A stretch of 64,000 bases of DNA from Acidimicrobiia bacterium (GTDB lineage Bacteria > Actinomycetota > Acidimicrobiia > Acidimicrobiales > AC-14), in the NCBI GenBank assembly GCA_023264995.1, contig JAHFUR010000006.1:1-64000 (forward strand), written 5' to 3'. The position numbers and the translations under genes were made by a program. The notes beneath the pieces are model-generated. The model worked only from the letters and a program-made list of their open reading frames with translations. It searched no databases and was not told the DNA's origin. Of this stretch, positions 59,014-63,134 are shown piece after piece. The number at the start of each line of letters is the position of its first letter. The first letter of the stretch is position 1.

Positions 59014-59881
59014 ATGCGGAGACTGTTTCCCGCCGACGGGTACACGGAGGCGGCGTTGCGGTGGGGCGAGCGCACCGGGCAGTGGCGCCGAGCCGTCCGG
59101 GGCGTCTGGGCGGAAGGGCCGGAGGAGGTCAGCGACCTTGACCGGGCTCGGGCGGTCGTCATGGCCAGCGGGGGCGTGGCCAGCCACCACCTCGCCGGCG
59201 TGCTCCTCGGCCTCGACGCCGTGGAGCTCGCCGGCACCTGGGCGACGGTCGCACCGACGGCCAGCGGGCGGCGGGAGGGCGTGTGCCGAAGACTGCTGGC
59301 GCCGGAACGCATCGTCACCGCCGGCGGGTTGGCGTGCACGGACGGGCTGCAGACGATGCTGGACCTGGCCGGCTCTTTACCCGGCGCGGTGTGGGAGCAG
59401 GCCCTGGAATCGGCGCTGCGGAAGGACCTGACCACCGTCGGGGTCTTGGGCGAGGTACTGACCGGCCGGAGCCGAGCGGTGGGTGCTGGCCAGGGCCGTA
59501 CTCGAGCGGCGGGGAGCCGTCGTGCCGACGGACAGCTTGCTGGAGACGCTCATGGTGCAGCTGGCCCGGACCGTCGCCGGGCTGCCCGACCCCGTCCGCC
59601 AGCTGTGGGTCGAGGCGGCCCGCGGCCGGCTCGACCTGGCGTGGCTCGACCTCGGCCTGTTCGTCGAGCTCGACGGCCAGCAGCACGCCGGCCAGCCGGT
59701 CTACGACGCTCGGCGGGAGACGGCCGTCGTGGCCGCCACAGGGTGGCTGTGCGGGCGCTTCACCTGGCACGAGGTGGTGTACCTCCCGACCTCGACGGCC
59801 CGTCGGCTGGCCGCGCTGGCCGACCAGGCCCGCCGGCGCCCCGTGGGTCAGCCGGCGCGCAGCAGCTCGGCGACCCGGTAG
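59014..59881 (+). pseudogene. Frameshifted AbiEi/DUF559-type protein
   Basis: The first 150 codons (from ATG 59014) read MRRLFPADGYTEAALRW... with an AbiEi-like HTH and helical middle (SHHLAGVLLGLD). Near 59459-59470 the coding frame shifts by one nucleotide, and the remainder (RWVLARAVLERRGAVVPTD) continues to 59881 with a DUF559 endonuclease-like fold: VELDGQQHAGQ and GRFTWHEVVYL. Intact homologues are about 290 aa in one frame. No slippery run is seen, so a mutation or sequencing error is more likely than recoding. The 3' 34 nt overlap aroG. Confidence 0.75.
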
Positions 59882-61200
59882 GCTAGGTCGAGGGACTGGC
59901 GGCCGTTGAGGCGGGGGTCGCACGCGGTGAGGTAGCGAAGGTCGAGCTGGCTGTCGAGGACCTCCTCGGCGCCGCCGAGGCACTCGGTGACGTCGTCGCC
60001 GGTCAGCTCCACGTGCACGCCCCCGGGCCAGGTGCCAAGTGCCCGGTGGGCTCGAAAAAAGCTGCCGATCTCGGCCAGGACGTGGTCGAGGTGGCGGGTC
60101 TTGCGGCCGCCGGCGCTGACGAAGGTGTTGCCGTGCATCGGGTCGCAGACCCACACGACGGGGTGGCCCGAGTCGCGGACGGCGCGGATCATGGGAGGCA
60201 GCAGCTCGTCGGCCCGGTCGGCGCCGAGGCGGGTGATGAGGCTGAGCCGGCCGGGGATGCGGCTCGGGTTGAGGTGGTCACAGAGCTCGACGGCCTCTTC
60301 CGGCGACACCGACGGGCCCAGTTTCACGCCGACCGGGTTGTTGATCCCCCGGAAGAACTCCAGGTGGGCCCCGTCGAGCTGGCGGGTGCGGTCGCCGATC
60401 CAGACCAGGTGGGCCGAGCAGTCGTACCAGCCGCCGGTGAGGGAGTCGCGGCGGGTCAGGGCCTCCTCGTAGCCGAGGATGAGGGCCTCGTGGCTGGTCC
60501 AGAAGTCCACCTGGTGCAGCGTGGCCTCCTTGGCCAGGTCGATCCCGCAGGCCGACATGAACCGCAGGGCCCGCTCGATGCCGGCGGCGATGCGCTCGTA
60601 GCGCTCACCCTCGGCGCTGGTCCGCACGAACTCCTGGTTCCAGGTGTGGACCTGGTTGAGGTCGGCGAAGCCCCCTTTGGTGAAGGCGCGGAGCAGGTTC
60701 ATGGTGGATGCCGACTGGTCGTAGGCTCGCTGCAGGCGACCGGGGTCGGGGATGCGGGCGTCCGGCTCGGCGGTCATGTCGTTGACCATGTCGCCGCGAT
60801 AGGCGGGCAGGACGACGCCGTGGACCACCTCCGTGGGCGAGGAGCGGGGCTTGGCGAACTGGCCGGCGATCCGGCCCATCTTCACCACCGGCACGCCGGC
60901 GCCGTAGGTCAGGACCACCGCCATCTGGAGGATGACCTTGAGCTTGTCCCGGATGGCATCGGCGGTGAAGGCGTCGAAGGACTCGGCGCAGTCGCCGGCC
61001 TGGAGCAGGAACGCCCGGCCGGCGGCCACCTGGGCCAGGGCCGAGGTGAGCTGGCGCACCTCGCCGGCGAAGACCAGCGGGGGGCGGGTGCCAAGCCGCT
61101 TGAGGGTGTCGTCGAGCGCGCCCTCGTCGGGCCATTCCGGCTGCTGGGCGGCAGGCCGGGCCCGCCAACTGCTCGGCGTCCAGGAGGTGGGATCAGTCAT
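59848..61200 (-). CDS. aroG: Class II 3-deoxy-7-phosphoheptulonate synthase
   Basis: 450 aa, the plant/actinobacterial class II DAHP synthase that condenses PEP and erythrose-4-phosphate. Motifs: PLVFAGEVRQL, LLQAGDCAESFDAF (about 64-77), KMGRIAGQFAKPRSSP, WTSHEALILGYEEALTR and CDPMHGNTF with metal-site residues. ATG 61200; TACCCT lies 13 nt upstream. Divergent from nadD. Confidence 0.95.
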   Translation of the reverse strand: MTDPTSWTPSSWRARPAAQQPEWPDEGALDDTLKRLGTRPPLVFAGEVRQLTSALAQVAAGRAFLLQAGDCAESFDAFTADAIRDKLKVILQMAVVLTYGAGVPVVKMGRIAGQFAKPRSSPTEVVHGVVLPAYRGDMVNDMTAEPDARIPDPGRLQRAYDQSASTMNLLRAFTKGGFADLNQVHTWNQEFVRTSAEGERYERIAAGIERALRFMSACGIDLAKEATLHQVDFWTSHEALILGYEEALTRRDSLTGGWYDCSAHLVWIGDRTRQLDGAHLEFFRGINNPVGVKLGPSVSPEEAVELCDHLNPSRIPGRLSLITRLGADRADELLPPMIRAVRDSGHPVVWVCDPMHGNTFVSAGGRKTRHLDHVLAEIGSFFRAHRALGTWPGGVHVELTGDDVTECLGGAEEVLDSQLDLRYLTACDPRLNGRQSLDLAYRVAELLRAG

Positions 61201-61251
61201 GTCGGTCCACACAAGGGTAGAGGCCAGGCCGCTCGTCCGTAATACTTCTGC

Positions 61252-61839
61252 ATCGCCGGCAGACTGGGAGTCCTGGGGGGCACGTTCGACCCCGTCCACA
61301 TCGGCCATCTCGTTGCCGCTGTCAACGTGCGGCACGCCCTGGCGCTCGACCGGGTGCTGCTCGTCGTGGCCAACGCACCGTGGCAGAAGAGCGGGCGGGC
61401 GATCACGCCGGCGGCCGACCGCCTGGCCATGGTGCGAGCCGCGGTCGCCGGCACGGAGGGGGTGGAGGCGAGCAGCATCGAGATCGACCGCGGGGGCGAG
61501 TCCTACACGGCCGACACACTGGAGGCCCTGACCGCCGAGGAGCCGGGCCGGGAGCTGTTCCTGGTAGTGGGCGCAGACGTGGCTGCCGACCTGCACACGT
61601 GGCGCCGGCCCGATGTCGTCGCCCGGCTGGCCACGCTCGTGGTTGTCAACCGGGGGGCAGCCGCCGACGTCGCCGTCGGGCCACCGTGGCGGGCCCAGCA
61701 CGTCCGGATCCCGGCGCTCGACATCTCGAGCTCCGACCTCCGGGCCCGGGCCGCGGACGGTCGCCCGCTCGACCACCTCGTGCCCGCCGGCGCCATTGGC
61801 TGCATCCGCGAACGTGGCCTGTACGCTTCGGGCACATGA
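61252..61839 (+). CDS. nadD: Nicotinate-nucleotide adenylyltransferase with ATC start
   Basis: NadD makes nicotinic acid adenine dinucleotide in NAD synthesis. The indispensable GGTFDPVHIGHL starts only 9 codons after ATC 61252, and no ATG, GTG or TTG lies in frame between the upstream TAA (61240) and residue 26. ATC 61252 would yield MAGRLGVLGG..., a typical NadD N-terminus, and lies 6 nt after TAATAC (61240-61245). CTG 61264 is the alternative. The C-terminal ISSSDLRARAADG completes the signature. 195 aa; the stop overlaps rsfS (ATGA). Confidence 0.88.
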   Translation: MAGRLGVLGGTFDPVHIGHLVAAVNVRHALALDRVLLVVANAPWQKSGRAITPAADRLAMVRAAVAGTEGVEASSIEIDRGGESYTADTLEALTAEEPGRELFLVVGADVAADLHTWRRPDVVARLATLVVVNRGAAADVAVGPPWRAQHVRIPALDISSSDLRARAADGRPLDHLVPAGAIGCIRERGLYASGT

Positions 61840-62213
61840 GAACGACAGCCGACCAGGTCCGCGAGTGGGCACGGACCGCGGCCCGGGCGGCGTCGGCCAA
61901 GGGCGGCGAGGCCACGGTGATCATCGAAGTGGGCCTGGTGCTGGCCATCACAGACGCGTTCGTGATCACCTCCGGTCGCAACACCCGCCAGGTGAAGAGC
62001 ATCGCCGAGGAGGTCGAGGTCCAGCTCAAGGCGGAGGGTGACATCAAGCCGCTGCGGGTCGAAGGCCTCGGTGACAGCCAGTGGATCCTGCTCGACTACG
62101 GCGATCTCGTCATCCATGTCTTCCTCGACGAGACCCGTGAGTACTACGACCTCGAACGGCTTTGGTCCGACGCTCCCCGGGTGGAGTGGGAGGACGAGGC
62201 GGCCCGCAGCTAA
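61836..62213 (+). CDS. rsfS: Ribosome silencing factor RsfS
   Basis: 125 aa. DAFVITSGRNTRQVKSIAEE and WILLDYGDLVIHVFLDETRE are characteristic of RsfS/Iojap, which binds L14 and blocks subunit joining in starvation. ATG 61836 overlaps the nadD stop and lies 8 nt after a TACGCT box, so it may also have its own promoter. Its TAA overlaps the convergent gene's stop. Confidence 0.95.
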   Translation: MRTTADQVREWARTAARAASAKGGEATVIIEVGLVLAITDAFVITSGRNTRQVKSIAEEVEVQLKAEGDIKPLRVEGLGDSQWILLDYGDLVIHVFLDETREYYDLERLWSDAPRVEWEDEAARS

Positions 62214-63052
62214 CCGCCGAGGGCGTCCTTGACGGCGGCGCGCGCCTCGTCGACGCTCATGGCCACCAGTTCGGGCAGAGTCCGGCCCAGCCCGGCCACC
62301 ACCTGGTCGGCCAGGTAGTAGCCGACCCGCCATTTCCCGTCGACCAGGCCGCCGCCGAAGAAGGTCTCCAGCGCCTCGGGGATGTCGAGCGCGGCCCGGA
62401 CGTGCTTGCGCAGCTCGTCGACGTGTTGCTGGCACCACGGCAACCAGTCCTGGGCCTCAGGGTGCCCGTACCAGAAGTAGTCGATCTCGCCGGCGTCGGG
62501 CACCGCGGCCCGCGACACCTGGGTGGCCAGGCCCTCGGAGAAGACCATCCACGCCATGTCGTCCTCGGGGATGGTCTGCCCGGCCCGTTCGAGGGCGATC
62601 TCATGCCAGCCGTGGCTGCCCTCGTGGGCGACGAGGACCCGGGTCCCTTCAGGCGACTGGAACCACTCGAGGCAGTGGAAGACGGCCACGTCGTCGTGCA
62701 GGCGGCCCACCGCCGAGTTGGTGGTGAACGTGCCCACCATGAGGACGTGGACGGGGGACGGTTCGGGCTCTAGGCCCATGAGCGAGGCCAGGTTGGGGTC
62801 GATCTCCTCGATCATCCCGGTCATGACCGGCGCCGCTTCACGGGCCCGCTTTCGAATTTCCGACAATTCCCGCACCATGGCCGCCATGCCGCCACCGGGA
62901 CCACCGGTGGCCTCTTCGAAAGCGGCGAACACGTCGGTGTTGGCCGCCTGGTAATGGTCCTTCCAGAGCAGTTCGCGCCGGAGCGGGCTCTCTAAACCGG
63001 CCTTGCGGGCATAGGCCTCGAAGGCCGGGATGGTGTCTCGGATCTTGGTGAT
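62210..63052 (-). CDS. Putative HExxH zinc protease with ATC start
   Basis: 280 aa as read from ATC 63052. VAHEGSHGWHE supplies H143-E144-x-x-H147, a gluzincin-type zinc motif, with helices before and after. I do not recognise a named family; DUF2268 is a loose resemblance. The first in-frame GTG is at 62932, but the 40 codons before it have high GC3 and protein character (ITKIRDTIPAFEAYARKAGL), and TAGGAT lies 5 nt upstream of ATC. If translation begins at 62932 the protein is 240 aa. Confidence 0.72.
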   Translation of the reverse strand: MTKIRDTIPAFEAYARKAGLESPLRRELLWKDHYQAANTDVFAAFEEATGGPGGGMAAMVRELSEIRKRAREAAPVMTGMIEEIDPNLASLMGLEPEPSPVHVLMVGTFTTNSAVGRLHDDVAVFHCLEWFQSPEGTRVLVAHEGSHGWHEIALERAGQTIPEDDMAWMVFSEGLATQVSRAAVPDAGEIDYFWYGHPEAQDWLPWCQQHVDELRKHVRAALDIPEALETFFGGGLVDGKWRVGYYLADQVVAGLGRTLPELVAMSVDEARAAVKDALGG

Positions 63053-63134
63053 GCGGCATCCTAACGGCCCGCCGGGGGGTGCCGGTTCGCCTAGGGTAGG
63101 GATGTTCTGCGTTCCCGCCCGAAAAGGAAACCCA

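Follow-up and report, generated by a model that had tools for sequence, protein, structure and literature searches.

An ATC codon as the probable start of a putatively leaderless nadD in the Acidimicrobiales

The nadD gene of an Acidimicrobiia bacterium appears to be translated from an ATC codon. Its mRNA is predicted to be leaderless, with translation beginning at the 5'-terminal AUC and an ordinary initiator tRNA likely serving in initiation, a reading to which a probability of about 0.83 is assigned. The gene lies within the window, which is the whole stretch of 64,000 nucleotides that was analysed (features in Table 1). Conservation of the ATC is by itself weak evidence for a start, since ATC is the usual isoleucine codon at high GC content, and for that reason the case is built on the position of the codon, its spacing from a -10-like box, the missing alternatives and the comparison with outgroups.

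Table 1. Features of the nadD region and their coordinates in the window
Feature	Coordinates	Strand	Basis or remark
aroG-type class II DAHP synthase	59848..61200	-	Pfam PF01474, E 1.4e-204; divergent from nadD
TAATAC, -10-like box of nadD	61240..61245	+	TAA doubles as the in-frame stop closing the upstream frame
nadD (nicotinate-nucleotide adenylyltransferase)	61252..61839	+	195 codons plus stop; TIGR00482, PF01467, dN/dS
ATC, putative nadD start codon and mRNA +1	61252..61254	+	shared by five genomes from two genera
CTG, rejected alternative nadD start	61264..61266	+	ortholog comparison
Downstream gene	61836..62213	+	ORF; overlaps nadD stop as ATGA
Second gene with conserved ATC start (ATC 63052-63050)	62210..63052	-	280 aa; congener and outgroup alignment
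TAGGAT, -10-like box of second gene	63058..63063	-	5 nt before its ATC

The nadD reading frame and its start region

Direct reading of the sequence bore out the frame, coordinates and codons of nadD given in the initial annotation. The in-frame stop that precedes the gene is the TAA at 61240-61242, which is followed by TAC TTC TGC and then by the ATC at 61252, from which the gene reads ATC GCC GGC AGA CTG (61264) GGA GTC CTG (61273) GGG GGC ACG TTC GAC. The earliest in-frame ATG, GTG or TTG after the TAA is the GTG at 61327, which is residue 26 counted from the ATC, and the earlier statement that this interval holds no such codon is correct. Start candidates between the TAA and this GTG are limited to the ATC and the two CTG codons at 61264 and 61273. 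The GGTFDP motif, which had been placed nine codons after the ATC, begins instead at 61276, where it occupies the ninth codon with the ATC counted as the first. Gene callers restricted to ATG, GTG and TTG would begin NadD at residue 26, and the nucleotide-binding motif would be lost.

The protein is a full-length member of TIGR00482, with a score of 135.1 bits (cut-off 112.45) that covers positions 1-194 of 194. It carries the GGTFDPxHxGH motif and also matches Pfam PF01467. The 3.8 Mb draft genome holds one copy of NadD, and the nearest named relatives are from metagenome genomes of the Acidimicrobiales and other actinobacteria. nadD is an essential gene of NAD synthesis, and the dN/dS values of 0.16-0.21 found among the congeners indicate that it is under purifying selection. 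The downstream gene, which we take to encode an RsfS-like ribosome silencing factor, probably shares an operon with nadD, given the overlap between the two reading frames.

Box spacing and leaderless layout

The starts of 124 distinct NadD sequences of the order were read, 104 of which have an ATG, GTG or TTG located 6-16 codons before GGTFDP. Of the 61 TANNNT boxes seen in these 104 sequences, 53 precede the start by 6-10 nt, where about 0.5 per position is expected by chance. The clustering of boxes at this distance indicates that a leaderless nadD is common across the order, and it supports the proposal in the initial annotation that the TAATAC box, an imperfect match to TANNNT, places a leaderless 5' end near 61252. 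A simple scan at nadD did not find a sigma-70 promoter consensus, and an Rfam scan of the region returned no match.

ATC occurs at the same place in five genomes. The source genome (G000) and two others (G001 and G002) belong to one genus, while the remaining two (G167 and G191, also listed as L033 and L139) belong to genus g122 of another family. The box-to-ATC spacing is 6 nt in the source genome, 8 nt in G001, 7 nt in G002 and 6 nt in each of the g122 genomes. All five therefore have a -10 box at roughly the 6-9 nt before the start that marks a leaderless gene, in agreement with the spacing in the orthologs and with that of ATG and GTG starts across the genome. The ATC lies 8 codons before the GG of the motif in all five, which is the modal start position in the order (25 of 104), and its A is the sole purine 6-9 nt past the box in the source genome and its two congeners. 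When the in-frame codons found 6-8 nt after a TANNNT box of nadD are tallied, GTG occurs 32 times, ATG 14 times and ATC 4 times (5 with TAATAC included), and no other codon exceeds 2; if TANNNC boxes are also allowed, ACG occurs 4 times.

Several other nadD orthologs likewise have no ordinary start. A CTG stands behind GGAGGTGA in L017, L027 also has a CTG, and L016 has a GTA behind GGAGGAG, while L012 and L128 perhaps use ACG or TTG. In L208 (G269:C1, about 1636342), a single-contig genome, nadD reads DGSASSGGTFDP and looks frameshifted at its 5' end.

Conservation of the ATC in relatives

The initial annotation had called for an alignment of nadD starts in close relatives, and this alignment shows ATC at the codon corresponding to 61252 in both congeners, making three of three genomes of the genus, as well as in the g122 pair. 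The 5' end of the gene reads TAGAAT-8 nt-ATC AAC GAA CGA CTG in G001, TAGAAT-7 nt-ATC GCT GAG CGA CTG in G002, and TAGAGT-6 nt-ATC GGC GAG CGC ATC in the two g122 genomes (JAUJNQ010000005.1 for L033). In both members of g122 the in-frame stop is the TAG of the box itself, the ATC falls between the box and the motif, and there is again no ordinary start before the motif. Synonymous divergence among the three species of the first genus is 0.56-0.76. In a NadD tree whose deep branches are poorly resolved, these three species form a clade with support of 100/99, and the g122 pair groups with a sequence that starts with GTG (98/95), apart from the first genus. Because of this grouping, the ATC start of nadD probably arose at least twice.

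A second gene with an ATC start

A conserved ATC start is also found in a second gene of the window. All three congeners carry ATC as its start codon, and the aligned codon is ATG or GTG in eight of eight outgroups, five of which have the start exactly 6 nt past a box; the ortholog in genus g122 retains ATG. The distance from box to ATC is 5 nt in the source genome and 6 nt in G001 and G002, and the boxes read TAGGAT or TAGACT. With dN/dS values of 0.14-0.18, this gene is under purifying selection as well. A Pfam search with its 280-residue protein returned no match. The protein, which several but not all families of the order retain, has an HEGSH sequence that fits HExxH and possibly represents an unnamed metalloprotease family.

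Rarity of ATC starts in the genome

Start codons were surveyed with a codon HMM, which identified 876 genes across 950 kb of the 3.8 Mb genome (72% GC). About a fifth of the genes surveyed have a leaderless-like layout. In the positions 6-8 nt after TANNNT boxes, ATG was counted 98 times against 7 expected and GTG 73 times against 10 expected. ATC was not enriched in the same 950 kb (3 against 4.9 expected), nor were TTG and CTG, which excludes ATC as a general leaderless start of this genome. Among the 171 genes of the source genome that have an ortholog in a congener, nadD and the second gene are the only ones with a conserved boxed ATC and no shared canonical start; a further match, g789, proved to be an internal isoleucine codon. 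Since ATC is not enriched after boxes and only these two genes qualify, ATC starts are rare exceptions and not the rule of the genome.

Other genes drew attention in the course of this survey. A HAD-like gene (G000:C75, 139463) was unconvincing as a third conserved case because other codons serve as the start in its relatives. A nitroreductase-like gene (G000:C11, 17339, plus strand) has an apparent ATC start and no other start in the source genome, but it was rejected as a conserved case, the nearest congener matches (34-38% identical) having ATG or GTG. A VapC-like gene (G000:C75, 98736, minus strand) likewise shows an apparent ATC start and no other in the source genome. The RNase III gene rnc (G000:C1, about 60192, minus strand) has no ordinary start and has CTG, often as CTGA, in its place; this CTG is kept in most of 12 relatives (L340-L351), and in one of them (G004, L346) the aligned codon, which follows a TAG, is ATC.

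Alternative explanations and a proposed mechanism

Translation of nadD could instead start at the CTG at 61264, leaving the ATC inside an untranslated leader of 12 nt. CTG is a recognised near-cognate start, this codon is found in all three congeners, and CTG starts seem to occur in the order, for instance in rnc. Such a leader would nevertheless be too short for a Shine-Dalgarno sequence, the CTG lies 18-20 nt past the box and thus beyond the observed 6-10 nt, and the boxes of this genome show no excess of CTG behind them. The orthologs argue in the same direction, since the aligned codon in g122 is itself ATC, and the arginine that directly precedes the CTG is retained by 116 of 124 orthologs, its codon switching synonymously between AGA and CGA in the genus. 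A start at this CTG is thus improbable, and while the initial annotation was right that CTG codons are present at 61264 and 61273, they do not fit as starts, even weak ones. Entry from further upstream, on a longer mRNA from an upstream promoter with frameshifting or stop readthrough after an upstream start, is less probable still. Other frames are open across the region, but an in-frame stop lies within the box in the source genome and in both g122 genomes, and the sequence upstream of nadD is antisense to aroG and lacks a conserved upstream start.

The genomes are drafts, and several are metagenome assemblies, which raises the question of whether an assembly or base-calling error masks an ATG or GTG. 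This can be given almost no weight because the ATC of nadD is read alike in five assemblies and that of the second gene in three. It is also conceivable that the AUC is read by an initiator that does not carry methionine, such as an isoleucine tRNA, so that the protein starts with isoleucine. A tRNA-Ile(GAU) does exist, yet the only GAU tRNA found in the source genome looks like a normal elongator, and the initiator tRNAs of G001 and G002 carry the ordinary CAU anticodon with no sign of a special initiator, which makes this possibility about as slim as entry from upstream. A search of the source assembly for a full initiator tRNA gene found a truncated copy alone. The 3' fragments of this gene at G000:C42 7469-7525 and G001:C106 32544-32595 resemble remnants of integrated elements.

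Initiation at the ATC, as the initial annotation proposed, is the reading favoured by the box spacing, the homologous position, the conservation in five genomes and the second gene. Transcription of nadD would begin at A61252, 7 nt past the TAATAC box, and the ribosome would initiate at the 5'-terminal AUC of the resulting leaderless mRNA to give (f)MAGRLGVLGGTFDPVHIGHL. Initiation most likely would involve the ordinary initiator tRNA with its CAU anticodon, which leaves the third codon position mismatched, and would probably be weaker than from AUG or GUG. A weak start might have a regulatory use in keeping the levels of NadD and of the product of the coupled downstream gene low. A broader proposal, that leaderless initiation in this genus follows a less strict rule than in mycobacteria and accepts a 5'-terminal AUC as a selected, low-rate start in a small number of genes, one of them essential, is doubtful and can be advanced only tentatively.

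Comparison with known systems

The infC and pcnB genes of E. coli start with AUU and are leadered. nadD resembles them in that it has no usable ATG, GTG or TTG and in that its near-cognate AUN codon, which is expected to be weak, is conserved between species; it differs in having AUC and a predicted leaderless mRNA. In Deinococcus deserti, N-terminal proteomics reportedly found non-canonical ATC and CTG starts. That case is similar in being a natural ATC start in a bacterium with many leaderless mRNAs, although it involves another phylum and other genes. AUC was among the seven strongest initiating codons in E. coli reporters, at more than 100-fold above control cells (Hecht 2017, as cited in PMC12350097). 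According to that account AUC is able to initiate, but it did so in an artificial construct, whereas the nadD codon is a natural, conserved and putatively leaderless start.

The closest parallel is with the leaderless genes of mycobacteria, in which the -10 box similarly abuts the coding sequence, leaves no room for a Shine-Dalgarno sequence and places the start at +1. Leaderless initiation in mycobacteria required ATG or GTG, and ATC served as the negative control (PMC4633059), and IF3 discriminates in vitro against weak pairing at the third position (PMC10158994). In light of these results, leaderless initiation at AUC is surprising. The mycobacterial rule of ATG or GTG at +1 does not describe the five nadD genes considered here, all of which have ATC at the predicted +1. 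The rule becomes directly testable with a conserved ATC that occupies this place in an essential gene and that seems to have evolved there twice.
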